A stretch of DNA of 64,000 nucleotides from Polytrichum commune. Lineage: Eukaryota; Streptophyta; Polytrichopsida; Polytrichales; Polytrichaceae. The stretch spans positions 34,926,527 through 34,990,526 of the forward strand of contig OX485808.1 in assembly GCA_950295325.1 (NCBI GenBank), read 5' to 3'. The notes under the pieces were generated by a model. It ran no database searches. It was not told where the DNA came from and saw only the letters and a program-made list of their open reading frames with translations. Shown one piece after another: positions 1,974 through 48,844 of this stretch (positions are counted from its first letter, which is position 1; every line of letters starts with the position of its first letter). A program made the position numbers and the translations under genes.

Positions 1974-3668
1974 TCACGAACGAGCCATCCGTCGTCGCAC
2001 GAAATTACTATCCCTGTACACGAACATGGATGGATCATGACGATCATATATTCCTGAAAGCAGGAGTTTGGCATTCCCGAGCATCAAGCAAATATCTTCA
2101 AATTCAGGACGAATAGTTGGATCAGGGTGCCAACAACTCGTCACAATAAATTTCAAGTAAACGGGACATCGCTCTGGTTCTGGCAGCGCCGGCCTCTCCT
2201 CTTTCGATATACGGATCTTGAATGCGCGTGGATAATCTTCACAACCAAGAGCCTCCATAGGGGACTTCCAAGTCAACAATTCTCCTAGAATCAAACCAAA
2301 GCTATAGACGTCCGTCTTCAATAGATCAATTGGCTCTTCTGGCTCTTCTGGCTCATTGAACAGCTCAGGGGCCATGTACTCGGTAGTACCAGCCCGTCTC
2401 CAACCTCGAACTTCTTTGGCATTTTCCATAGCTTCACCAAAGTCAATGAGCTTGATAGTGGCGCCTTCAAGAATTCCATTACCGTCCATTCGCTTCAAGC
2501 TGCAAATAATATTCTGAGGCTTGAGGTCTCTATGAGCAACATGGAAATTCCGTTCCATACCGTGCAAATATTGCATAGCCCTTGCAATTGGCAGAATCAG
2601 ATCAATCGCCTCTAGAGGAGAGAATCCGTCCATCCTTTGAGTTCCTGACCACGGTAAGAGATTAATTGCACGCTGCAATAGATTCACTTCTGGGTTTTTC
2701 TTAAGATACATAAGCTTCTTCAGATCTAAATCCAGCCATTCCATCATAAGAAAAGGAACTTTTCCTTTCTCACTCCACCGACTTGGCGGTTCAATCCCCC
2801 AATGTCCGACTAGTCCCACAATGTATGGATTATGGTATTTCGCCATGATTTCTGCTTCTTTCTGAAATTTCAGAGCTGGCATGTCTCCAGGAGGTACACC
2901 ATCAAGGTGAGGCATGTCATCTGGAGACACATAACCAGGAAGAGGCATTTTCACTGCGAAGTCTTTCCCATAAACCCATGGGAGTTTTACTACCACACCT
3001 GACGCGCCTTTGTTATCACATGAGACTCCGTCCTTACTCAGAATATTGAGGTTGAAACTTCGCAAAAGTTCCTGAACAAGTTCAGGTGGAGGTGACGACA
3101 CCGGTTTGCGTTCATGCCGGTACAGTTGAGCAAGCTGGCAACGTTCTGAATGATATTCTGGATCATGTTGTGGACGCTTCAACTCTTTAAAAATCATGGC
3201 CTTCAAGCTATTTTCATCAGATTCTCTACGAGAAATAATTGACTCACCAACATTCTGGCCCCGAAGAGACTTTATCAAATCTTTTTGACCGTTCAGAAAG
3301 TCTTGCAGAGTCATACTCCGTGCTCCCAACTGAACCACGTCAGTTGCCCTTTCTAAGTCAAGCAGAACCTCAACAAAATGCTCTGCAAACTCGCGTGATA
3401 ATACTGCATTTAAAATCCACTGCTCACTCATACAGACGTCCACCAAACTCTCAGCTTTACTTGCAGCAACACGAAATTCACTGACGGCACCAACTGGTGT
3501 TTTATCCGAAATTTTTCGAAAAGCCTGCGTCAATTTGGAAGCCAAATCTTGACATTGCTTCATATTCATGTGCAGAAGCTTCTTCTCTGATGGTCTGTCT
3601 TCTCTACAGGCCTGGATTATGCCTTCCATTTTCTGACAAACAATATCCAGATGCTCAAGGCTCGGCAT
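1974..3668 (-). CDS. Protein kinase with helical N-terminal domain, intronless
   Basis: Predicted 564-residue protein kinase from one uninterrupted frame. Residues 1 to about 160 are helix-rich without membrane segments and resemble the four-helix N-terminal region of plant MLKL-like and bryophyte kinase proteins. The kinase domain runs from about 205 to 535: glycine-rich loop near 220-225, VAIK-type Lys240 (FAVKM), helix-C Glu271, HRD at 379-381 in AHRDLKPQN, DFG at 409-411, APE-type motif MAPE at 432-435, and DVYSFG in helix F. All catalytic residues are present, so it should be active, probably a Ser/Thr kinase by the HRDLKPQN motif. Between Lys240 and Glu271 there is an unusual Pro/Gly/Asp-rich insert with an imperfect internal repeat. 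The gene is divergent from the pseudokinase gene starting at 7924, with a long inverted repeat between them, and the N-terminal domains look related. A role in immune or stress signalling is inference from family and context. Confidence 0.88.
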   Translation of the reverse strand: MPSLEHLDIVCQKMEGIIQACREDRPSEKKLLHMNMKQCQDLASKLTQAFRKISDKTPVGAVSEFRVAASKAESLVDVCMSEQWILNAVLSREFAEHFVEVLLDLERATDVVQLGARSMTLQDFLNGQKDLIKSLRGQNVGESIISRRESDENSLKAMIFKELKRPQHDPEYHSERCQLAQLYRHERKPVSSPPPELVQELLRSFNLNILSKDGVSCDNKGASGVVVKLPWVYGKDFAVKMPLPGYVSPDDMPHLDGVPPGDMPALKFQKEAEIMAKYHNPYIVGLVGHWGIEPPSRWSEKGKVPFLMMEWLDLDLKKLMYLKKNPEVNLLQRAINLLPWSGTQRMDGFSPLEAIDLILPIARAMQYLHGMERNFHVAHRDLKPQNIICSLKRMDGNGILEGATIKLIDFGEAMENAKEVRGWRRAGTTEYMAPELFNEPEEPEEPIDLLKTDVYSFGLILGELLTWKSPMEALGCEDYPRAFKIRISKEERPALPEPERCPVYLKFIVTSCWHPDPTIRPEFEDICLMLGNAKLLLSGIYDRHDPSMFVYRDSNFVRRRMARS

Positions 3669-3919
3669 GGCTGACGGCTATTGGGGGGCAGACATAATTT
3701 CAAACCTGGCCATCTTCGTGCAAGACGCATGGAGCGGATGATTGTTCACTCAGTGAATGAACGCACTCAAGAAGTCGTCTCTCCCGATGTTACAACCCTT
3801 TAGAAGATTATTATCTTCCCTTCCATCTGTAGAGTTTCCATGTATGTAAGCTATTGATTACTACATAATTAAGCTCAGAATAGAATTCATATGAGCTTGT
3901 CTCGTTCTACGAAATAATA

Positions 3920-4905
3920 AGTTCTAGTGACACATTCTTTTCATCCAGAATGCACATTAGCCATACCTACCAAGAAAGAGCAAGTTCGTGAAGCCACTTC
4001 AAGCAAATCCTAGTAATGTTCCGGTCTGAAACGCATTCGACAGTAACAATTACAGAACATTTGATCTCCACCGGGCCCCTCGGAATACATGTGGTAAGTA
4101 TAGAATGATCACTATAAAGCCACCACAAATATACGTAACTCTCACCCAGATCGCACCGTTTTTACCTAGACTGAGGCAGAGACAATATACCTGTGATGCA
4201 CATTTCAGGAGATGCACTCTTCCCCCCCGAACATTGTTGTGAGTACTTCGCACCTTCTTGAAGGGAGATACTTCGGAATTGAGCATGCACGGGCATAACT
4301 GACAACGGATCAAGGGCAGCCACAAATTCAAACCTGGCCACGAGACGAATACCGTACCATCAGGACTTATCAAGCGCATACTTTTCCATGTTAAGAAGCC
4401 GGCTGCACATTTTTGTGGACAGCGAAGAAAATGAAGCAATTGCTGAATTCAGGCTACCTCTGGCTGATCTATGCAGGATGTGGGCCTCATCTGGCTTCCG
4501 TCATGCACCAGTGCCACCCGGAGAGGGCTTCAGAGCCGCGTCAATTGGCCGCAGCTCTCTCGGACTCACATTACCACGCTAAGGGAAAACTGAGACGCAG
4601 CTCGCCACACTCGCGCAGTATGTGACAGCAGAGGAAGGAATGAGGCGAAGAAAAAGATGGCTGCCTAACAGGTAACAAAATTGCTCCGGGATGAATCGGT
4701 CAACTCGACGAACATCCTGAAGCCAGGGTATCTGAGATCTTCCAGGGTAGCCATGCGGTAGAGATAACAACAGCTTCACTTAATTGCTATTAGACTCAAG
4801 TCACCGTCAGAGGGAGGACGTTAAGTTCCCCCCACGAACTTTTGGGGGGAGGCATATTCGGGCAGGCGCAGCCGCCGCCCAGAAAATCAAGATTTTCTGA
4901 ACCCG
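3920..4905 (+). repeat. Left arm of long inverted repeat
   Basis: This arm is the reverse complement of 5119-6107, with a small number of substitutions and short indels. Read outward-in, it starts AGTTCTAGTGACAC, contains a CCCCCCACGAACTTTTGGGG hairpin near 4829, and ends near the TCTGAACCCG motif. Mirrored open frames (4050-4439 and 4579-4779, minus) exist only because both arms carry them, and they match no family I know. There is no convincing target-site duplication at the outer ends, so an inverted duplication explains it at least as well as a foldback transposon. Confidence 0.9.
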
Positions 4906-5118
4906 TGCCTAGCGCGCCTGCACGCGATTCCAATATGGAATTTGTGGATAAGTGGGCTTCAAAATGCAAGGGCAAATTGGCAATGATTTTTTTGAAGTGG
5001 GGTGGGCGGGCAATAGTTTTCTGCGCAGATTCCGATATAGAATTTGTGGATAAGTGGGCTTCAAGAATGCAAGGGCAATGATTTTTTCGAAGTCAGCCCG
5101 GCGGCAGCAGTTTTCGGT
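4906..5118. repeat. Spacer of the long inverted repeat with two direct repeats
   Basis: The asymmetric centre of the palindrome is about 213 bases long. It contains two direct repeats, at 4926-4996 and 5028-5096. Each begins GATTCC(A/G)ATAT and continues through GAATTTGTGGATAAGTGGGC. Because the spacer is not self-complementary, transcripts across it would fold into a hairpin with about 985 paired bases and this loop. Confidence 0.75.
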
Positions 5119-6107
5119 CGGGTACAGAATATCTGGATTTTCTGGACGGTGGCTGCCCCTACCCGAATATGCCTCCCCCCAAAAGTTCGTGGGGGGAACT
5201 TAACGTCCTCCCTCTGACGGTGACTTGAGTCTAATAGCAATTAAGTGAAGCTGTTGTTATCTCTACCGCATGGCTACCCTGGAAGATCTCAGATACCCTG
5301 GCTTCAGGATGTTCGTCGAGTTGACCGATTCATCCCGGAGCAATTTTGTTACCTGTTAGGCAGCCATCTTTTTCTTCGCCTCATTCCTTCCTCTGCTGTC
5401 ACATACTGCGCGAGTGTGGCGAGCTGCGTCTCATCAGTTTTCCCTTAGCGTGGTAATGTGAGTCCGAGAGAGCTGCGGCCAATTGACGCGGCTCTGAAGC
5501 CCTATCCGGGTGGCACTGGTGCAAGACGGAAGCCAGATGAGGCCCACATCCTGCATAGATTAGCCAGAGGTAGCCTGAATTCAGCAATTGCGTCATTTTC
5601 TTCGCTGTCCACAAAAATGTGCAGCCGGCTTCTTAACATGGAAAAGTATGCGCTTGATAAGTCCTGATGGTACGGTATTCGTCTCGTGGCCAGGTTTGAA
5701 TTTGTGGCTGCCCTTAATCTGTTGTCAGGTATGCCCGTGGATGCTCAGTTCCGAAGTGTCTTCCTTCAAGAAGGTGCGAAGTACTCACAACAATGTTCGG
5801 GGGGGACGAGTGCATCTCCTGAAATGTGCATCACAGGCATATTGTCTCTGCCTCAGTCTAGGTAGAAACGGTGCGATCTGGTTGAGAGTTACGTATATTT
5901 GTGGTGGCTTTATAGTGATCATTCGATACTTATCACATGTATTCCGAGGGGCTCGGTGGAGATCAAATGTTCTGTAATTGTTACTGTCGAATGCGTTTCA
6001 GGCCGGAACATTACTAGGATTTGCTTGAAGTGGCTTCACGAACTTGCTCTTTCTTGGTAGGTATGGCTAATGTGCATTTTGGATGAAAAAAATGTGTCAC
6101 TAGAACT
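5119..6107 (-). repeat. Right arm of long inverted repeat
   Basis: Reverse complement of 3920-4905. The two arms encode mirrored open frames of nearly the same length (129 aa in both; 66 versus 67 aa), with only scattered differences, so the duplication is recent or the arms are homogenised by gene conversion. The outer end (CACTAGAACT, ending at 6107) is sharp: similarity stops immediately on both sides. Confidence 0.9.
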
Positions 6108-7923: not shown

Positions 7924-8871
7924 ATGGATGACTATGTGGAACAAGCCGTTCGAGCAATAGAAGGTTATATGAGTTCTCAAGAATCTTCGCAAGCTACTAA
8001 TAGCCTTACGGTGAAGAATATTGACATCACTGAGCCCCAAGTACTATTCACCCAGCTTCAGGTTACAAAAAGTGTTCTTCTGAACCTTACTAAGCCTCAG
8101 CGGGAACTGCACAAGCCGTTACATCGCAAAGTCTACTATGCAGTAGAGAACGCCGGCACCCTGGTGAAGAACTGGTATGAGACAAGGAAAGACTCTGACG
8201 CAATTGTGCCAACGGAGAAGCGAGAACATCTTCTTGATATTCTTCTAACTTTGCGGTGGTGGACATGGGTAGTGGCATTACAAGAGGGAGAGAGGTGCAC
8301 ACGGGATGCAAATGTTTATGGAACGACTTGCCCCTTGGAATTTGGGGGTGTCTTGAGATTTTTGCTTGAGTCTGACTCTGCTGCAACACCAAGGACCTTG
8401 CCGTCATATGCATTTGAAGTGTGGCAACAAGAAACACATGGTACATTGCAGGAGATCCTAAAGTGGACTAATGAAGGTAGCAAACAGGATGATGAGCAAC
8501 ACGAACAACCTGATATGGTGCTCAGCTTTGTAAAGGCCGCAGGTATGCCTACTTTTACAGTGTTAGGCATGAGTTCCGCACCAATTCCTCGAAATGATTC
8601 TAAACCAGAGGCAATAGGGTACGATCTGACCATCGACCTTACTCAAGATCTGCTAGGAGTTAGTCATAGGGGATGGGTAGTCAGAACCAGTTTAGGGCAA
8701 GAGCCTTGTGTTTTGAAGAGAATGAACAGTGAGGAATGCGAGCCCCTTGACCTAGCGCAACTGTGGCATCCACACATTGTGCACTTCATCCACTATTGGA
8801 GAGAACCACTGACCCAGTATTTGTTTCTAGTTATGGAGCTTATGGACGGTGATCTTGCAAGATACATAAAA
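7924..8871 (+). pseudogene. Pseudokinase exon part upstream of the TAG
   Basis: The first ATG of the open frame is at 7924; the frame is open a little upstream but without another ATG. It encodes 316 residues: an alpha-helical N-terminal region with a segment (about 72-117) that lines up by eye with residues 65-112 of the 1974-3668 kinase, and the kinase N-lobe through the hinge (VMELMDGDLARYIK). The glycine loop is poor (LLGVSHRGWVV), the ATP-contact Lys is present (CVLKRM), and HIVHFIHYW is a typical beta4 segment. If translation ended at TAG it would give an N-lobe-only fragment. Confidence 0.7.
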
Positions 8872-11800
8872 TAGAGCCCTAAACCTCCATTCTCAATGCC
8901 TGTAGCGATTGATGTCATGTTACAGATTGTCAAGGGCATGCTTTACTTGCACGAGATGGACATAACGCATCCACTCCTCAAAAGCTCCAACATCTTATTT
9001 AAGCAGGGAAAAATTCGTGAGGAATATCAGAAAGAAAAGTTTCTGATCAAGCTTGGAGGCTTTGGATCTCCAAAGAGGAGAGATTCTAGAGGAAGTGATG
9101 CGCTTAAGAAACGGGATGTGGAGCGGTTCGGCCTAATTTGCTTAGAATTACTGACAGGAGAGGTGCAATTTGAGGAGGATTCTTGGGAGATTGATGTGCA
9201 TATTACGCCAGAGGTTCCAGATACCACACCGCCACTTTTAAAGGATTGCATCACTCAATGTTTGGCTGCACAACTGAGTTTTTCAGAAATTTTGGTGATC
9301 CTTCTGCTGGCAGAGTGTCAAATATTGCAGAGTTCACTCGATGACACATATTCATCGAGTCAAGGCATAGTCGACAACAAAGGACATAAACCGTTCAAGG
9401 AACATGCCCAAGGTTGAGTCAGTTTGGAGTGATATTGTGTGCATGCAAACTTTTTTATTTATTTATGTGATGAATTTTAAACATTAATCCCTGACAATAT
9501 CTGTCATGCCATGCAGATCATGCAGCCTCTTCAGGCCAAGCCTCAACCTTCGCGGCTAACCCTGGGGTACTTAGTCATAACCTCCTGAAATGTAATTCGG
9601 ATTGTGAATCTTTGATTTGTTTAATTTGAAGGACTAGCGTGAAGTCTAGCGTGAAGTCTAGCATCTGTCTTCTGTTGTGGTCATGTATCCTAACGTTATT
9701 CTTCAGATTCACATTTAGAATCGCGTTTCTTAAGCATCGTGAAGTCTAGCATCTGTCTTTCTGTTGTGGTCATGTATCCTAACGTTGTTCTACAGATTCA
9801 CATTTAGAATCATAATTGAAATTAACTTTGTGATCTGGGAATTGTTAAATCCAGCATTATCAGTGGGATGACCTCTACATGGTTTTGGGTAGTGAATCTC
9901 ATGTAGGGGTCATTAAAGATGATGCCAAATTCTTGCACCTGGGAAATTCTACACACCAGTCATAGCATTCTCTCTTGCCAAGCTCTACTAACAATGTGAT
10001 CTAGATACTCCAGAGCTGCGAATCCACACTCCAGCTATCCTAAGGAAATCTACTTGTACTTTTCAGGCCTGTGATGTGTATCAGTTGTATCCAAAAGAGG
10101 ACGATCCAACACCAATGAACGCAGGTGTTACTCTAATTTTCTTCCATGGTATTCCCAAGGTTCCAAAAGAATGGATAATGTCGTGGAGGACCCGGGATAA
10201 CAAACATCTATGGCCACAAATGTGGTTGCCTGGAGATCTAGGTGGAAATATACGTGTGCTCTCTGTATCGTACTATGGTCGTCCTAATGGGATTCACGAG
10301 GATGCGCTTGCCCTGTTTGAGATACTGACAAACAGGTACATGTCATGATCTTTTGCAATTTAAGCACAATGTTAAGTACGCATTCTCTAACTATGTCAGT
10401 TTTTTCTAATCACCATGTCTTGAATAATCCCATCATTCTTGGCATTCTAATCATGCAGGTGGAGATTGTGATGTATTCAGGCCAGAATGGAAGCTTGCGC
10501 ATTCGCAACAAAAGATTGTACTGGTTGGACATTGCTTTGGAGGGCTAGTGATCAAGACTCTACTTACAGAGATTAACAAATTATCAAGGATTCAGCTGAA
10601 TGAAAACGAAAGCATGAGACGACAAAGAAAAATATGTGATAGATTTTTGGAGAATGTTAAGGAAATTGTTTTCTACAGTGTGCCTCACTCTACGGACAGG
10701 GAGCAAGTGTTTCAAAACTACATCACTAGATGTAGTGAAACTGGCCATCTCTTACGACGAAGTAGCCTTCTGCAGAATATTACAAGGAACACCAAACAGT
10801 TCAGTCAAGAAATGGTACAGCTTAGCAAAGACTTCGAATCGAAGTTGGGTTACAGGACGATGATCCTTGCTTTCTATGAAGAACAACCTACAAATCTGGT
10901 AAGCATTCTGGATATTTCTAAGAAACCCTTTGCTCTGCGACCAGGAACCTTCCTAGGAAAACCTGTGCATAATTTGATCAGCGCCAGTTGAATCAATCGA
11001 GTTTGCTATAACAAAGAATTAAGTCAGAGACGCCATGGAGACTTGGGACTTAGGGCCGGTTCACACTATGCCCAAGTCGAGAGGAGAAGCGTCACTTTTC
11101 TAGACCAAACTATTTCGAGAGGAGAAGCCTTTGGGTTGAAAAAGTATATTAAAATAATCCACGGCTAAAAATGTTCGGCCTCTCGACGGAAGTTTGGGTC
11201 GAGCATTTTGCTTGACCCAAACTTGGCTCGAGAGGCCGCACTCTTCCCGCCATATTTTCCTAAAAGTGTTGCCACGTAGGCTCTTTTGGAGGCGACGTCC
11301 TTTGGACTTTGGCCTCTATTGTGAAGGCCGAGAGGACGAACTTTGGACATTTATGCATTTTCATTGGTGGAAACGCTTCTCCTCTCGAAGTTTGGCCATA
11401 GTGTGAACCGGCCCTTAGCTAAATGCACGAGAACTGTTCTTGGGCGGTGGAGAGAACCTATAAATGTAAACTTGCACAGTACGGTGAAACTTGTCAAGTT
11501 CCTAGGTATTGATATTTCTATATTATCTGGTCAAAACCCATTTGGAAAAGAATTGTTCAAATTTTTGTTTAACACCAATACTAGGACCTATGTGTATTGC
11601 AGAAAGGTGCGGTAACAGTTTCAGATGATTCATCTCAAAGGGTTCAAAAGAACTGGGACTGCCACACCATTGATGGAGACGATCACTTTGAACTCTGTCG
11701 ACCAGATTCCAAGGAGCATATTGGCTACAAAAAGCTAGTGGAAAGCATTCAAAGCTGCGTGCAGTCTGAACCCAAATTCAAAGAACCTATAAATACTGAT

Positions 11801-14800
11801 GAAGATCCTATTGATCAGGACTGTTCTTTCACAAAGTTTTTACCCGTCCACATCCCAAAACCTCGAATTGAAAGTCAAAAAAGATTGCAACCTGTCCCAA
11901 AACGGGTAATTTCAAAACCAACCCGTCCATGGAAAGGTTGAAGAAAAAACAACCCGTCCCAAAACCGGTAATTTCTAAACCAACCCGTCCATGAAAAGGT
12001 TAAAGGAAAAAACAAATCGATAAAGATAACCCGAAAGATGTCGGCATGTGATTGGTGCACTTGCCACTTGGAAACAATAGTATCTTACTATCTTCGTTCA
12101 TTTCTGCTTTTTCTATTATAATTACCAATTTGCCAGCCTGCCACTGCCCCATTTTGTCTGTTTGTCCACAGACTAGTTCAGAGAAACTGAACTAGACTCA
12201 GTCACTCAAACTCAGCCGGTTCATTTGAAACTAACTCGAATTCAAGAAGTTGGAGAGTGCCGCTGGAACAATCTCCTCCTGCAATCTTGAACTTCAACAG
12301 GTGTTTTCTCAAACTCAACCGGTTCATTTGACGACTGCAATCAAGTTATCTCTCACCGGTCTCTCAGTTGCTTTAGCTTTCAGTTGCATATGTTCGATTC
12401 ATTAGCATCCTAAATCTTGAGAGTCTTATTCCTCTCTTTTGTTGTGGGTTGAGTGCAGATTCGAGGGCTGTGCAGGAAATTTTTGTCAATTCGAGTTAAA
12501 CCCTAGCAAATTGCAGGGTTGAGCTTGTAAGTTGTTGGGTCAATGTATGAGTAGATATTTGAGCCTTACATGTGCCTAAGATAGTGCAAGCGTTGTCTAT
12601 TTATTAGTTGGATTGATTTTGCAGGTTCAAGTGTCAAGCCCCATCACGATTCCGATGAAGAAATTGTGACACTTTCAAGTCCGATGTTCCAAGGTCTGCA
12701 AGTTTAGAGAGACGGATAAATTATCACATTATTCCAGTTGAAAACACCGATTGGAATTATGCAGTGATGCTTGTTTGGAGAAACATGAAGGAGAGGAGAA
12801 TTCATCCACTTCTTTGAAGGGTAAGTAGCTCTTTATTTTTGAACTTTTTAACATGTTTATATATACTAATTCTTATTCAATTACTAAGTTTACCTTTAAT
12901 TATAATCTTTGACATTATGTTAAAAAGGTTCTAAATTTTGTGGTTGATGAATTAATGTATGCAGGTGAATCAAGCACTTCAAGATTGATAGTTTGATTGG
13001 GTATTAGTGGTTTGATTGCATTATGCTTATATTCACATGTCATATATGACATAATGTAATTGATATTTGTACCATTTTTTTTAATTTAAAAAAATGTTAT
13101 TTTTAGAACCCGTCCAAAGTGAATTTGACACGTCCCAAAACCGGTTCATTTTCTAAGAACCCGTCCACTGGAAATGTTTTTTTTTATGAACATGTCCCTA
13201 GACATGTTAGGGACCTTGTGAAAAAACACCCCTGCTATTGATACTGGTGGATATCCTAGGACGGTGGATATGATCCTTTCTCCTAATGTGCAACGTTGTT
13301 CCTTCGAAGTCTTTGACAGAGTTTCAAGTGGGTGAGCTGGATAGCCTGCCCGATCCCAGAATACTTACACAGGCTTCCATAGATGAGGACCAATACTTCT
13401 GGGCCACCTGTGCCAGCCCTGGTAAGTTTCAACACTTTGTTGCCAAGTGTCCATATCCATGTCACATTTTAAGGTGGTTACAGCCAATCCATCACGATGT
13501 GTGTTGCTTTGTCCAGAAAATTAATATACACCTATTGGCTCCTATCATAACATTATTCAGATCCATAACAGTGTTTTGTGGGATGTACAGTATTCCACGG
13601 AATATTCCTTGATATTTTTCACATTCCATATGAAATTGGGAAATATTAGGGAATAATCTATGGAATATTGTCAATCCTCCAAAACACTGTTATGAATCTG
13701 AATAATGTTACGGTGTAGGATACTTTAATCATATTGTAAAAGTGAATCAAGAACAATGACTCGTAGATGCCTCGTAGATTTCAATTTAGAGGGTGAGCTT
13801 GATGGAGATATGTGTCAGTCCAGTGTATGTTAGGCATGGCTTCAAAGTTATTACATTTATTAGTATAATACACCCGTTCGAGTGCATGTTAGGCATGCCT
13901 TCAAAGTTATTACATTTATTAGTATAATGCACCCGTCCGAGTGCATGTCAACATGTGTGTATGGAAACCTTGAGGGTGTTCTTAAGAGTGAAATCACTTG
14001 GTTTCATACATAAAACTGCATAATGCACTGATCCTATCATGGAATGGAATGTCCTAACACACTTGAGCTTTAAGACCCCATAGTACATAGTAATAAGATG
14101 CATATACCACGTGTTCAACTTGTCTATATTCATGAAACCTCCATAACGATTTCTAGGTAATACAATCAGAAATGTTCTTGTTGTTGGTTGTAGTTTCAAT
14201 TGTTCTTTGTTGTGAAGACCATGAGGAAGTGCGATGTGGAGACTCTTCCCTTGGGGGGCCAATGTGTACTTCGCATATCCTTAACAATCTTCAGGTTGTG
14301 TTAAGACTAATCATAGAAGTAGACATATCTGGTCAAAGTTAGAACGGGTATGATCATGTCAGTTTGTCAATCTATGTCATGAACTCCTCCACTTAAACGA
14401 GAAAAAAGCATGTGGGCGAAGAGGTCCTTCATTCAATGTTCATCTTTTCTCACGAAACTGGAATTTAGATATATCTCTCGAGAGTTAGGCATCATTGTAA
14501 TATGGTAAATTAATGGTCGGACATGCTTTTATGCTTATGTCCATAGTCAAGCCCAGCCCGAAAAGGGCGGAGTAGCCCGCAAGCGAAGAGGCTCTTCATA
14601 AATGCTCCCACGGGAGCCAATGTTTATATCTATCTGTCCATAGGCAAGTAACAACTTTTTTGTTATATTGTTGGACCAGGATATCCGTTGCTCTTGGAGG
14701 GAGAGTCTAACCTTCCTGATGGGCTGAGTGGTAGTTGTTCCTTGGAGTTGGGAATGGAGAAATTAAATCCGTTTCTCTTGGAGGGAGAGTCTACCCGGCC

Positions 14801-15503
14801 TGTTGTGGTGAGTGATAGTGATTACTTGGAGTTTCTTGAAAAGGAGAGAAGTGGCCTTCTTGCAACCCAAAACAAAGCCCAGAAAAAGAGAATTTTGTTG
14901 AGGTTGGCACAAGACTTGAAGGTTCTTCCACCAGCAAATCCTTCCATTTGTGGCCCTGAGCTTGATATTTCTAAATGGAGGTACATTCTTGATGAACTCA
15001 TTATGGAATTAAGGACCGTGGTGAGGAGAGGCTCTCTAGTATTACGCAGCTCTGGAGTGTACGTTCTCACATCTACTCCATACTGTCTATTCTTGAAGTT
15101 GTTGGCTAACTTAAAATCTGACGCGAATATGTTGCTCCTGGAGGAATGTTTCGAGCTACCTGATGTGGTGAGCAGTGACGATTACCTCGAATTCCTTGAA
15201 AAGGAGAAATGTTGCCTTCTTGAAACCCAAAACAAAGCCCAAAAGAAGAGAATCTTGTTGAGGTTGGCACGAGACTTGAGGGTTCTTCAACCACCAAACC
15301 CTTCCATTCTTGGCCTTGACTTTCAGTTTGAAATTGATCAATGGAGGTACACTCTTAGTGAACTCATCGCTGAAATGAGGACTATAAAATCCTGGAGTGG
15401 GGCAATACACAACTCTGGAGTGTGGGTTCTCACAAGTACCCCATACAAAGACATTTTGGAGATGGTTGCTGAAAACATATGCAGTGAATCCAGTGTAATT
15501 TGA
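7924..15503 (+). CDS. Pseudokinase / alpha-beta hydrolase / duplicated-domain fusion gene with in-frame TAG
   Basis: Composite gene model. Exon 1, 7924-9412: helical N-terminus (about 1-120) related to the divergent kinase gene, then a kinase-like domain. Exon 2, 9517-9566. Exon 3, 10067-10335, and exon 4, 10481-10898: alpha/beta-hydrolase of the SERAC1-like type. Exon 5 starts at 11603 and carries the DDHFELCRP region with the expected catalytic His. A probable exon ending at 13421 joins in phase to the last exon, 14680-15503. Phases of exons 1-5 agree (1, 0, 2, 0); the link from exon 5 to 13.3 kb is unresolved. Kinase motifs are degenerate: Lys265 kept, HRD replaced by HPLLKSSN, DFG replaced by GGFG. 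Codon 317 (8872-8874) is TAG with the same frame continuing on both sides. The hydrolase elbow reads GHCFGG, with Cys where Ser is usual. It may be a pseudogene, two genes, or a gene with one nonsense allele. The hydrolase and pseudokinase assignments are firm; the full-length fusion is inference. Confidence 0.6.
8872..8874 (+). other. In-frame TAG inside the kinase-like domain
   Basis: The reading frame is identical before and after this stop (frame 1 in both halves). The text just after it (SPKPPFSMPVAIDVMLQI) is the expected start of the kinase C-lobe. No GT-AG intron of plausible length can remove it. So it is a nonsense mutation, a readthrough codon, or an assembly error. Confidence 0.85.
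9636..9810. repeat. Tandem repeat in intron (about 85-90 bp, two copies)
   Basis: Two consecutive copies of a unit beginning CGTGAAGTCTAGCATCTGTC and containing GTTGTGGTCATGTATCCTAACG. They lie in the intron between the pseudokinase-side exon (ending 9566) and the first hydrolase exon (10067). The first copy is preceded by an extra short GTGAAGTCTAGC repeat. Confidence 0.8.
10067..10898 (+). CDS. Alpha/beta-hydrolase (SERAC1-like) exons with Cys nucleophile position
   Basis: Two exons (10067-10335 and 10481-10898; intron 10336-10480) within the fusion model encode the core of an alpha/beta-hydrolase. The beta strand and oxyanion region reads VTLIFFHG. The nucleophile elbow is VLVGHCFGGLVIKTL, with the TGC codon at 10533-10535 in place of Ser. 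A conserved EIVFYSVPHSTD segment follows. An alternative acceptor at 10458 would break the frame; the one at 10480 keeps it. This family occurs as the N-terminal module of bryophyte HNL immune receptors and as SERAC1-like lipid or signalling enzymes. With Cys it may be inactive or act with a thiol nucleophile. Confidence 0.8.
11053..11414. mobile_element. MITE, PIF/Harbinger-like
   Basis: A 362 bp element with terminal inverted repeats of about 45 bp beginning GGGCCGGTTCACACTATG, flanked by TTA on both sides (11050-11052 and 11415-11417). A TTA target duplication and GGGCC-type termini fit PIF/Harbinger-derived MITEs. It has no coding capacity. It sits in the intron between hydrolase exons 10481-10898 and 11603 onward. 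Confidence 0.85.
11603..11845 (+). CDS. C-terminal hydrolase exon
   Basis: The acceptor TATTGCAG is followed by KGAVTVSDDSSQRVQ and DGDDHFELCRP, the region that supplies the catalytic His in SERAC1-like hydrolases. It joins in phase 0 to the exon ending at 10898. The frame stays open to 11941, but from about 11846 it runs into CCCGTCC-rich repeat sequence, so the true exon end is not clear. Confidence 0.65.
11846..13225. mobile_element. CCCGTCC-motif-bounded insertion
   Basis: An approximately 1.4 kb stretch with repeated CCCGTCC / GTCCCAAAACCGGT motifs at its left end (about 11846-12000, two units of roughly 55 bp) and again at its right end (about 13108-13175). The interior has a second direct repeat around CTCAAACTCA(G/A)CCGGTTCATT (about 12206 and 12309) and no open frame of note. 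A palindrome AACATGTCCCTAGACATGTT lies at 13189-13208. It appears to interrupt the gene after the last clear hydrolase codons. The class of element is unknown. Confidence 0.4.
13373..13421 (+). CDS. Probable short exon of the fusion gene
   Basis: Acceptor TTACACAG and donor CCTG|GTAAGT bound a 49-base exon reading ASIDEDQYFWATCASP plus one base. Its phase (1) matches exactly the exon starting at 14680. The same frame is open upstream to 13286 (PSKSLTEFQVGELDSLPDP), so the exon may begin earlier, for example after the CTTTGACAG near 13319. Confidence 0.4.
13549..13710. mobile_element. Hairpin MITE
   Basis: About 162 bp. TAACATTATTCAGAT at the left is complementary to the right end (ATCTGAATAATGTTA-type, with one mismatch region), giving arms of about 32 bp that continue through CATAACAGTGTTTT. 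It lies in the intron before the duplicated-domain exon and has no coding potential. Confidence 0.75.
13816..13948. repeat. Tandem repeat, about 64 bp, two copies
   Basis: Two near-identical units containing GTTAGGCATG(G/C)CTTCAAAG, TTACATTTATTAGTATAAT and CACCCGT(T/C)CGAGTGCATG. They are intronic in the fusion-gene model. Confidence 0.85.
14680..15503 (+). CDS. Exon with tandemly duplicated unrecognised domain
   Basis: The acceptor GGACCAG at 14673-14679 opens a long exon ending in TGA at 15501-15503. It encodes two copies of a domain of about 115-120 residues (about 14775-15120 and 15121-15480). Both share DYLEFLEKE, TQNKAQKKRILLRLA and, near the end, VLTSTPY. A third, partial start (PLLLEGESNLPDG) precedes copy 1. 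The domain is helix-rich and basic around the KAQKKR segment, with no membrane segment or signal peptide. I do not recognise the family. The phase fits the exon ending at 13421, so it is probably the C-terminus of the pseudokinase-hydrolase gene, but it could be a separate gene. Confidence 0.6.
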
Positions 15504-35600: not shown

Positions 35601-37581
35601 CTTCAAGTAATGATTTCATCTCTCTCCTTCGTACCCTTTAAGTACTCACGGGAAGGTGAGTAGTTAGGTTTTGGTGTGTGTCTTGAGCTCTTGCCTAGGA
35701 GTGTATGACAAGGTGTTGCTTATGTAGGTTTTGGTTGTGTGTGATACCACAGCCTTGCGGTACACAATGTAGTAAAGAGGGAACTTACTTCACAATGTTG
35801 TTTGATGCTTGGTTAAGCTTCTTGATTTATTTCTAACCTAAGTTCGAGTCTTAGAATATGTTGAAGTCCTTTTATGTGAGTAATATGCATCTTGTTGTAG
35901 AAGTCTTTCAATATATCTCTTGATTAACATTATTGGTTGCAAATCACATTCCCGTTGTTAAATCACAATCTACATGTTTTATGAACATGTGAATAAGTAA
36001 TATCTAATACTATATACAAAACCGTGTTCAAATGAATCCTTGGTCTAACCTAGAGACCTGATCATAAAATCACAAAACAAGAAGAGTTATAATACTTAGT
36101 ACGATGAAATTCATACAATTTTAATATATGTGGACCACAACATAAACTAAATTAGAATTGTTGCTTTCAACAAACTAGATAACCAAAGAAAGGAGAGTGG
36201 ATGACGAGGCACATGAGCAGCAAGTCACCCACCTACTCAACCTAATTACCAGTCATAACCAATCAACTCATGAAATCTAAAGTTATAGATGATATCGTGT
36301 CTCCATCGATGAAGCATTGCAACAATTTATAATAACCCTTTTGCTCTTGGATGAGCAATCAATTATGAAGCATATTCCAAGCTTACAACCACAGATTTTC
36401 ATCGTATTTCTTCATTTTTGTGTGGCTGTCCTTTAGTGTAGACTTTCACATAGATTGATCAGATAAAACTTGGAATGGGAACATTCTATACTCGTGAACA
36501 GGGACTTTTAGTAGCAGATACAATGTATTTGTGTAAATTTGCAAACTCTCTCAGACATGGAAAATTTGTGAGCTTAAATCTCCCGCATAAGATGATCTTT
36601 AGCATTTTAATTAACAGGTGCGGCAGGACCATGGCTGAGCCAACTGCCGGCCGTATTCACAAGTACGTCTCAAATTTTCGTTATCGAGCCTTCTTGACTA
36701 TCTAAATTTTTATCTGAGCATTCTTTTGGAATGTTGTTCTAATCTTGTATAGCTATGGCTTCGTGTGAGTTGGAGGATCATCTGGAGTTTTCACTGGAGG
36801 TTTTGCTTTGCTTGTTTCGTGCTGCATTACAAATTTCCCATCCCTAGTTGTAGATGGCCAGCAGCATCAACGAGAAGAATAATTGTGGCCATAGCCATTA
36901 TGCAGACGTTCCAAGCGTGAGGGATTTGATGCAGTTAGTTAAGGATTAATCTCTTGTGAAGATAAGTCCAGTTGGGCTGGTAAATGCCTGCCTTACGTAC
37001 ATGGAGGACATTCCAAGGGCAGAGACAATTATGCTTTATAAAAATCATCTTGAATTTCAGGTTAAGATTTGTAACGTACATATTGATGACCAACTAACTT
37101 ATGTCCATTTAATCACTTGGTCTGCATCACAAAGTATGCCTTCGTACCTTCTGGAAAGTGATTTCATCACCAAAGCACTGTTGATGATAACTTATTTATT
37201 CTGCTTATTCTGTTCTTCATAAAGTGTTTGATGATTTATCTGTTTTACTTATTTTAACTATGGGAAAGAAATTCTTGTAGGATGTGCAGTGAGAGAATCG
37301 ATATATGTACCAAGACCTCGTGCGAGTTTCATTGAGCTGGCCTGTGCGTAATGGCTTCCCTTCGTGTCCATTTTCACAGCTGTCCATGTTGCAAGCCGAC
37401 CAGCTGGTGGACAGCCGCTGGTACATCTGGCACTGTGAATCCATGCCAACAATTTATTGGTGGTTTCGTTAAGACACATTGAACCGACAGAAGAAACTGA
37501 TGATCACAGTAGCTACTGATTAAGCCATAAAGCTATGTCTGTGGTGTGAATGAACGATCGACATCAGTCCAGCGATATTGT

Positions 37582-38445
37582 ATGAACTGTGTCCGTGATG
37601 TAACGGACGAATATATGCATAAAAACCTGAACAAGCTCGCCAACAATGTCAGAGAGAGTTTTCTCTACTCCTCTAGCACCGCAAGGCTTTACAATATGCA
37701 GATGTTCCAGACACGCTTCGGCAAGGTTTGGTCATGGGAGAATGATACTGCATTTGTGGAGAGCATGCGCCAGGGGCAGATGTACGAGGAGTCGACATTC
37801 GAAGAGCACCTGGCGCCCATAGTTGCAAATGCATCGGTAATGTTGGACATCGGTGCACACATTGGCTCCCAGTCCCTTATGAGCGCGCACGAGAATCCAG
37901 ACCTCCAGATCATCGCATTCGAGGCGCAGGAGAAGATGTTTCGGCTCCTGTGCAAGAACTTGGACGAGAACTCGATACGGAACGTCGACGCACGCAATGT
38001 GGCGGTAGGGCACGTGTGCCACCCGAGCGTAGGCATCGCGAACTTTGTGGAAGACCACGGAGTCGTGTCCCCCGATGTCATTTATGGCGGTAACGTGCCG
38101 TTCAACTTAGGCGGCATCGGACTCTGCGGCCCGAACGCGAGCGAGGCTACCTCCGTGGTGCCAATGGTGACCATCGATAGCTTGCAGCTTCCGCATGTGG
38201 ATTACATGAAAATAGATGTGGAAGGCTTCGAGCCTCTCGTGCTGCTAGGCGCACAGGAAACCATTAATCGGTGCAAGCCCGTGATTCTGTACGAGCATAA
38301 TGAGAAGCGACCTATCCAAAGCGCGCTGGACCACTTTGGACTCCAACGGGACGCTTTGCCGGAGTCAGAGGAGCTTCTTAAATCCTTGGGGTACAACAGC
38401 ATAACAGCCCTCCCTCCTTTCAACTGGATCGCCAAGGTCACATGA
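37582..38445 (+). CDS. FkbM-family methyltransferase, intronless
   Basis: Predicted 287-residue S-adenosylmethionine-dependent methyltransferase of the FkbM type, usually acting on hydroxyl groups of sugars or polyketides. The SAM-binding motif I is MLDIGAHIGSQS, the acidic beta2 end is IIAFEAQEKMFRLLCKN, and the conserved VDYMKIDVEGFEPLVLLGA segment is complete. The ATG at 37582 is the first in the frame; an in-frame TAA lies at 37528, so any N-terminal extension would need an upstream exon. No signal peptide or transmembrane helix is evident. The gene has no intron and is clearly more GC-rich than its AT-rich surroundings. FkbM genes are common in bacteria and large DNA viruses, so transfer is possible; the substrate is unknown. 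Confidence 0.85.
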   Translation: MNCVRDVTDEYMHKNLNKLANNVRESFLYSSSTARLYNMQMFQTRFGKVWSWENDTAFVESMRQGQMYEESTFEEHLAPIVANASVMLDIGAHIGSQSLMSAHENPDLQIIAFEAQEKMFRLLCKNLDENSIRNVDARNVAVGHVCHPSVGIANFVEDHGVVSPDVIYGGNVPFNLGGIGLCGPNASEATSVVPMVTIDSLQLPHVDYMKIDVEGFEPLVLLGAQETINRCKPVILYEHNEKRPIQSALDHFGLQRDALPESEELLKSLGYNSITALPPFNWIAKVT

Positions 38446-47543: not shown

Positions 47544-47977
47544 TGGCTTGTAGCCCAGGGAATAACGTTCACCCTTAACCCCAAATTATATATCAACTTC
47601 TACATAGTGATGCACATTGGCAATCTGATTGTCCATTGAAACATTGATCCCATGATTACATAACTTTTATTGAAGTACACTGGAAAGCAAACACTGAAGT
47701 AAAGTCAGGATTAGTAAAGTATCTATAACTTTATAAAAGCAACTAATAATCAAACTAAAAGTTGCAAACTTAAGCCACTTTTACTTTGACCTATCACTAT
47801 ATTAAGGAACTTTTGAATGCGTAGAGCATTTCTCATCTCGTTCGGAGCACATCTCTTGTTCATAGCATCTCTTGCTGTGATCTTGCTTCAAGTACCGACT
47901 CTGGGAAGAGGAAACCTATCGGAGTTAGGGTAGGAAGTGAAACCCTAATTGTCTATCTTGTATAGGGTGGCTTTCTG

Positions 47978-48844
47978 ATGGAGTTCAGGAGTGAGAAGAC
48001 TAAAGATGGGGTTGACATCATTCCCCGTGAGCTTGCAAAGTTGAAGGATATTGTGGACGACAGGAGCATCGATGATGAAGAAAAGGCTCAACAGAGGAAG
48101 GCAGACATGATAACTCAATATAGAACCGAGATGATGGTTGATAGCTTGCGGCGCACTATCTATCTCGCCATCAGGAATGGTGGTTCCGTCAATGAGACAG
48201 GACGTAAACTTCACGAGATGATCACATTAGAGCATGGCCGAAAAATAGAGGTTTGTAAAATTCTTGTGGAGTGTTGCAGTCGGGAGAGAACGTACCAGAG
48301 ATACTATAGTCTTGTTGCTCAAAGATTATGCAGCATGCGTACAGGTTACAAAAAGAGCTTTGTCGATTGTTTCAGAGAGCAATATGTAATGGCCCCTCCG
48401 ATGCAGACCACTAAGCTCCGAAATGTAGCAAAGTTCTTTGTTCATTTGTTGGGTGCAGATGCCCTTCCATGGCATACATTATCCTACCTCTGGCTCACGG
48501 AGGACACCACCCCGTCGCTACTCGTTTTCATGCGGGTCTTGTTCCAAGAGCTTGCAGAGCACTTAGGGCTGTCGGAGCTCAAAGTCCGCCTCGCAGAACC
48601 ATCATTACAAGATTCCCTTGCTGGAATCCTTCCAAAAGACAAACCCAAAAACACACAATTTGCTATCACTTTCTTTACTGCCATTGGTTTGGGTGATTTA
48701 ACAGATAGTTTGCATGACTACGTTAACAGCATACCCGACATCATCAAGAACCACAGCCAACCTCCGGCTACTCGCAAACGACTGGCTAGTCACAGGGTGT
48801 TCCGAGTGCCAAGACAGTGCTGCAAATACCCTCTGCATCATTGA
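47978..48844 (+). CDS. CWC22-like splicing factor fragment (MA3 half), intronless
   Basis: A 288-residue frame clearly related to the second half of CWC22, the spliceosomal protein that loads eIF4A3 during exon-junction-complex assembly. Recognisable stretches are VDSLRRTIYLAI, VECCSRERTYQRYY, KLRNVAKFFVHLLGADALPW, VLFQELAEHLGL, FPKD-like LPKDKPKNTQFAITFFTAIGLG. The N-terminal MIF4G domain that contacts eIF4A3 in full CWC22 is absent, as is the SR-type tail. The ATG at 47978 is the first in the frame; a short charged leader precedes the conserved part. Loss of all introns suggests a retrocopy. The frame is intact over the whole conserved region, so it may be expressed; the C-terminal 30 residues look frameshifted from an ancestral basic tail. 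Confidence 0.75.
   Translation: MEFRSEKTKDGVDIIPRELAKLKDIVDDRSIDDEEKAQQRKADMITQYRTEMMVDSLRRTIYLAIRNGGSVNETGRKLHEMITLEHGRKIEVCKILVECCSRERTYQRYYSLVAQRLCSMRTGYKKSFVDCFREQYVMAPPMQTTKLRNVAKFFVHLLGADALPWHTLSYLWLTEDTTPSLLVFMRVLFQELAEHLGLSELKVRLAEPSLQDSLAGILPKDKPKNTQFAITFFTAIGLGDLTDSLHDYVNSIPDIIKNHSQPPATRKRLASHRVFRVPRQCCKYPLHH

Follow-up and report, generated by a model that had tools for sequence, protein, structure and literature searches.

What is encoded between positions 7,924 and 15,503 of the stretch of Polytrichum commune DNA considered here (C6:34926527-34990526, 64,000 nucleotides, the window), where a kinase fold with altered catalytic motifs is followed by a hydrolase-like domain and then by a duplicated domain, and where an active-type kinase gene stands head to head with the whole? 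An earlier account of this DNA, made from its letters only (the sequence-only reading), had proposed that these parts belong to one gene and that the two genes could be a signalling or immune module. Compared against one genome of 408 Mb, this single moss genome being the scope of all genome-wide counts below, we consider it likely that the locus is a decayed copy of a moss-type gene encoding a helical bundle-pseudokinase-hydrolase-repeat protein, within an atypical lineage of the nucleotide-binding leucine-rich repeat receptor (NLR) type that joins PNL and HNL modules. PNL and HNL form two distinct classes of bryophyte NLRs in Xue 2012 (PMC3352924, in the part of that paper available to us), and hydrolase- and kinase-NLRs are treated as separate types in the text available from PMC11218826.

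The structure of the gene is best seen in an intact tandem copy, the sister, at C6:34876324-34882487, which lies 58,126 bp upstream of the window copy and is free of all the lesions that the window copy carries. Identity between the two is 98.6% over the first 3.25 kb and 92.6-97.5% in the later main blocks. The sister has six exons with phases 1-0-2-0-1 that give a single frame of 1,298 residues with no internal stop, in the order helical bundle, pseudokinase, hydrolase-like domain and three repeat units. Five matching phases, 1,298 codons without a stop and an order of domains that recurs elsewhere seem more than chance would give.

The window between 7.9 and 15.5 kb is likewise read as six exons of one gene, all on the plus strand. 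Exon 1 (7924-9412) holds the helical domain and the pseudokinase, whose kinase fold is matched by Pfam Pkinase (1.5e-17 when the exon is read across a stop, and 1.3e-17 in another Pfam search), and it ends in the donor GTTGAG, weakened relative to GTGAGT in the sister. Exon 2 (9517-9566) has 50 nt and leads from phase 1 to phase 0, exon 3 (10067-10335) starts the alpha/beta-hydrolase-like domain and carries the motif FFHG, and exon 4 (10481-10898) has the nucleophile elbow GHCFGG with Cys replacing Ser. The first half of exon 5 (11603-11815) contains DDHFELCRP, which we take to be the catalytic-histidine motif of the hydrolase, and ends in the target site CTATTGAT, and the second half (13243-13421) is out of frame and runs into a stop. 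Exon 6 (14680-15503) comprises two copies of a domain of about 120 residues with no assigned fold. Much of this had been put forward in the sequence-only reading: the pseudokinase exon is recovered by its Pfam match, the short exon and the two hydrolase exons are borne out by the open frame and phases of the sister, and the phase-1 junction 13421/14680 and the duplicated domain of the last exon also stand. That reading went astray in making 13243-13421 an exon of its own, which is actually part of exon 5 split by an insertion. The sister contains three repeat units versus two in the window, an in-frame difference which could be a gain in one copy or a loss in the other. An exon 4 acceptor at 10459, with a frameshift that both copies would have had in common, was dropped, a relative having matching phase-2 sites; the acceptor 22 nt further on, at 10481, gives phase 2, and the sister frame is then open.

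The reading frame of the window copy is interrupted by a stop, an insertion and a frameshift. The stop, an in-frame TAG at 8872-8874 which the sequence-only reading overlooked, splits the pseudokinase exon. The insertion, at 11816-13234 (1,419 bp, unstranded) inside exon 5, is flanked by 8-bp target duplications and has inverted ends that resemble each other, and from the length of the duplication and the end motif we take it to be a hAT-like transposon; a genome search in which 40 of 982 candidates were scored gave at least 101 matches to it, many of them 95-98% identical. It is because of these target duplications and many genome copies that 13243-13421 can be placed as the second half of exon 5, and there a local loss of 2 nt relative to the sister shifts the frame into a stop. 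Intron 4 contains in addition an unstranded insertion of 362 bp resembling a miniature inverted-repeat transposable element (MITE), at 11053-11414 with a TTA target duplication, that is not present in the sister. Given the TAG, the transposon, the frameshift, the weak donor and the intronic MITE-like element, the window copy is classed as a pseudogene, a decayed tandem copy. Up to the TAG the reading frame is unbroken and differs little from that of the sister, so that the window copy might be thought to work through a truncated product of 316 residues made up of the helical bundle and the N-lobe. However, the message of a multi-exon gene is usually degraded when a stop occurs as early as the first exon, and the transposon and frameshift in the later exons are as expected in decay, and so a functional short product seems highly improbable.

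The association of kinase and hydrolase exons is not peculiar to this locus. Eight genome matches to the hydrolase exon were obtained at E up to 0.001, and in seven the same strand carries a family kinase exon 1.0-2.6 kb upstream. These seven kinase-hydrolase (K-H) loci are the two copies here, four relatives at C6:19.01-19.29 Mb (L018 at C6:19008000-19017990, L019, L022 and the C6:19.03 Mb copy L021) and one at C6:14.6 Mb (L020). For the eighth match (C5:2073242, 61 residues, with a stop) no kinase was found among the plus-strand frames of at least 85 codons in the stretch that contains it (L071), inspected without a Pfam scan. L018 has an open frame across five exons (phases 1-0-2-0), and the first two of these phases depend on a 50-nt exon that was located by searching for a fitting exon; this candidate, of matching phase, is identical in L018 and L019, which as close copies count once. 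Independent of the 50-nt exon are the phases of the hydrolase introns, 2 at exon 3/4 and 0 at exon 4/5, and these recur in L018 and in the distant L020 (the latter read by eye), and in L019, L021 and L022 exon 5 begins and ends at the same sites. The K-H fusion is thereby placed before the tandem duplication. Two or three adjacent genes, for pseudokinase, hydrolase and repeat domain, might instead merely stand side by side; in the stretches read, C3, C4 and C5 do carry the repeat domain apart from any kinase or hydrolase exon, and exon 2 is small and shows little conservation. This we hold to be improbable, since the sister frame is open across all five junctions, the kinase exon accompanies the hydrolase exon at all but one of its places and the hydrolase-intron phases are the same in two other lineages. 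That pseudokinase and hydrolase are fused in a single gene is probable and well supported, because the intact sister and those two lineages have the same order and hydrolase-intron phases. The kinase-hydrolase-repeat gene of the sequence-only reading therefore survives as a gene type, but not as a working gene in the window.

The catalytic motifs of both enzyme domains are altered. In exon 1 HRD is changed to HPL and DFG to GFG (HPLLKSSN, GGFG), and the aspartates of active kinases are absent. Among 25 kinases compared, this clade's two rows are alone in lacking the HRD aspartate, and the DFG aspartate is lost in these two rows and in L067. The clade, which unites the sister with three C6:19 rows, has support of 100/100 in the kinase tree; a wider group joining the K-H clade to the head-to-head clade is unsure, since its 82/90 support comes with long branches. 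The L020 kinase retains HRD and DFG. L067 (C5:49395650-49397700) is a family kinase with GFG for DFG and a retained HRD aspartate. At the hydrolase elbow the window and sister have GHCFGG (Cys), all four C6:19 copies GHGYGG (Gly) and L020 GHSLGG (Ser), the nucleophile Ser of G-x-S-x-G being absent from the window and sister. Both enzyme domains thus appear to have lost their standard catalytic residues in one clade. In a profile search of the Protein Data Bank (PDB) with the hydrolase the best lipase had an E of 0.24, the L020 hydrolase had no matches among PDB sequences, and the label "SERAC1-like" given to the hydrolase by the sequence-only reading was returned by none of the searches made. 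An AlphaFold2 model of the sister pseudokinase exon (pLDDT 63.9) has four N-terminal helices and a kinase fold. Protein kinases make up 50 of 50 among the Foldseek matches listed for this model, and the N-terminal bundle is thus not placed by structure.

Relatives of the gene differ in what comes after the hydrolase. At C6:19.03 (L021) the next long frame, of 1,202 residues, contains an NB-ARC domain (2.6e-37) and leucine-rich repeats (LRRs), and its acceptor TGTCAG|GTG is in phase 0, matching the end of exon 5. LRRs also come after exon 5 in the other three C6:19 copies (L018, L019 and L022), and NB-ARC was not found in the fetched stretches of these, which end within or after the LRRs. On the minus strand of L018 the LRRs are similar to one another and fill one frame of at least 1,603 codons running from directly after the hydrolase exons to the end of the stretch. 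The window and sister gene ends in the repeat domain in place of LRRs or NB-ARC-LRR: a phmmer search with the L021 NB-ARC matched only L021 among the window and L001-L028, and neither LRR nor NB-ARC was seen at the window locus, the frames of at least 240 codons in the window, L001, L025, L026 and L028 being otherwise assigned. The exon 6 domain belongs to no Pfam family above cut-off (best E 0.2) and has 39 matches in the genome, 27 at C5:44.87-45.74 Mb, nine on C3, one on C4 and the two here; some of the 27 clustered unit matches contain stops inside the match or frame. Upstream of the stand-alone units nothing was recognised in the frames by inspection, made without a Pfam scan. On C3 the unit starts at a likely phase-1 acceptor, in sequence resembling that of exon 6, which fits capture of the terminal exon, and the C4 copy has no such phase-1 acceptor start. 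It looks as if the terminal repeat exon was captured from a stand-alone gene family.

The N-terminal part of the protein provides the other connection to immune receptors. At least 10 of 20 related kinases have an NB-ARC match at most 1.5 kb downstream on the same strand, which is the PNL arrangement (126 of 466 candidates were scored in the genome search for NB-ARC). A profile hidden Markov model (HMM) built on the N-termini of 20 kinases matched the head-to-head kinase at 5.2e-12, C6:14.6 at 6.5e-17 and C6:19 at 0.0011, the best of 200 shuffles reaching 1.0. By BLASTP the N-terminus of the sister matches those of C6:19 (2.6e-7) and C6:14.6 (0.001), and its direct comparison with that of the head-to-head kinase was not significant (E 0.36-0.44). 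The proposal that the two genes of the pair share an N-terminal helical domain is accordingly upheld through the family profile but not by direct BLASTP. In Pfam searches of 27 kinases at E up to 1, RPW8 was matched in seven (best 3.9e-6) and MLKL_N in four (best 0.0031), and neither in the sister pseudokinase exon. The connection earlier drawn to PNL and HNL receptors is supported, as the N-terminal domain is that of a kinase group in which at least half of the members examined lie close to NB-ARC, and as the next long frame of one K-H relative encodes NB-ARC and LRRs. Overall the locus suggests a lineage in which known receptor modules are combined in a manner for which the literature searches made gave no description.

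Several observations weigh against an account of this kind. The hydrolase matches in Pfam all fall below curated cut-offs (Abhydrolase_6 0.0049, Abhydrolase_1 0.011, the query including an X and several residues that stem from the dropped exon 4 acceptor), and the joined exons 1-4 of the sister, searched against Pfam at 0.01, returned kinase families and no hydrolase family. The sequence of exon 2 is not clearly conserved, and at C6:19.03 it appears, as read by eye, to be 49 nt long with a poorer donor, so that splicing of this copy may fail to keep the frame; the frame there that encodes NB-ARC has a helical N-terminus of its own (RPW8 2.7e-4, below cut-off) and could therefore be a separate gene. 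The match of the sister N-terminus to the HMM of 20 kinases is weak (0.034), and the AlphaFold2 prediction on 28 repeat units (pLDDT 53, pTM 0.44) does not resolve a fold. Between the K-H copies 23 nonsynonymous changes (the stop counted) and 10 synonymous ones were found over exons 1, 3, 4 and the first half of 5 (exon 4 taken from the old acceptor, with a few extra residues), and the ratio of nonsynonymous to synonymous change (pN/pS) is not different from neutral (p=0.21); for the copies of the head-to-head kinase, with 33 and 10, the same is so (p=0.71). With pN/pS not different from neutral for both genes, the counts give no ground for claiming selection after the duplication. These ratios, a copy that is already broken and the existence of relatives with NB-ARC or LRRs would also suit an ordinary decaying NLR fragment, a PNL or HNL relic minus its NB-ARC-LRR whose sister is drifting without function as well. 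Such a relic is a serious contender which we nonetheless doubt, given that the sister keeps an unbroken frame of 1,298 codons, that the head-to-head kinase is open in each of its two copies and that both kinds of gene are linked in a second cluster.

The kinase at 1974-3677 on the minus strand is one open frame (Pfam Pkinase 2.7e-26) and has both the HRD and the DFG aspartates of an active kinase (HRDLKPQN, IDFGEA), so that the active kinase said to lie head to head with the pseudokinase gene is indeed there. A copy of 95% identity is found at C6:34870627-34872327, the gene order being the same at both loci and both copies being open. The nearest relative other than this twin is in two pieces, 40 and 49% identical, at C6:19353681-19357330, which puts it 67 kb from the K-H copy at C6:19.286, the two being divergently oriented like the pair in the window. 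A search for NB-ARC beside the head-to-head kinase (phmmer on the window and the flank L026, long frames being otherwise assigned) found none, and in the stretches read none was seen next to the C6:19353681-19357330 kinase either. Co-duplication of the pair and its divergent linkage in the second cluster strengthen the two-gene idea, and this linkage in two clusters is the best, if circumstantial, evidence for a pairing of the active kinase with the K-H gene. What we infer of protein activity, partnership and immune role is that the helical bundle, RPW8/MLKL-like, would mediate association or membrane action, that the pseudokinase-hydrolase would be a scaffold or sensor, that the captured repeats would serve as an integrated bait or binding surface, and that the divergently transcribed active kinase would be a phosphorylating partner. 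A full two-gene immune module, in which a divergently transcribed active kinase works with a scaffold of two pseudo-enzymes, the pseudokinase and a Cys- or Gly-substituted hydrolase, derived from a kinase-hydrolase-NLR whose NB-ARC-LRR was swapped for a captured repeated bait, and in which the pair was long kept together (two clusters) and duplicated as a unit, is a tentative and on present evidence rather unlikely extension.

Between the head-to-head genes lies an unstranded inverted repeat (3920-6107) with arms of about 0.99 kb in two blocks (3920-4593/5434-6107 and 4591-4905/5119-5433) that are 97-98% complementary, with 213 nt between the inner arms; cross-matches suggest that the sister locus also holds it, almost without the spacer. 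Further along the window are an open frame with an FkbM methyltransferase domain at 37531-38442 (Methyltransf_21, 3.3e-14) and one with an MA3 domain at 47966-48841 (3.6e-17).

How does such a protein compare with known systems? MLKL-type proteins of plants and animals combine a helical bundle with a pseudokinase. The sister protein resembles them in having a helical bundle and then a pseudokinase, with four N-terminal helices in a medium-confidence AlphaFold2 model and weak MLKL_N or RPW8 matches in some related kinases, but differs in its extra hydrolase and repeat domains and in the lack of an MLKL_N match. Paired NLRs are similar in being divergent gene pairs, although no NB-ARC was found in either gene of the pair here. 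The extra domain, apparently captured as an exon, recalls the integrated domains of NLRs treated in the available text of PMC11218826. With the PNL of mosses, as set out in the part of PMC3352924 available, a homologous N-terminal helical domain and a kinase are common features, whereas here the kinase is catalytically degenerate, the hydrolase comes after the kinase and no NB-ARC or LRR was found at the window. The HNL or Hyd-NLR of bryophytes (same parts of PMC3352924 and PMC11218826) have in common with this gene a hydrolase-like domain, in the relatives followed by LRR or NB-ARC-LRR; here, in contrast, a kinase module precedes the hydrolase, the Ser is Cys (window pair) or Gly (C6:19), and no NB-ARC was found at the window. 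No description of a kinase-hydrolase receptor was found among the titles and abstract beginnings listed by searches of the open PMC literature, which is not proof of absence.

What seems new is that one lineage would have both the kinase and the hydrolase modules, which the available parts of PMC3352924 and PMC11218826 describe separately, together with altered catalytic residues in one of its clades and a linked active kinase. If this account is true, it would give a plant receptor lineage with another, repeated domain at its end in place of NB-ARC-LRR, and a concrete system for asking whether the "enzymatic" N-termini of NLRs work by catalysis or as scaffolds.

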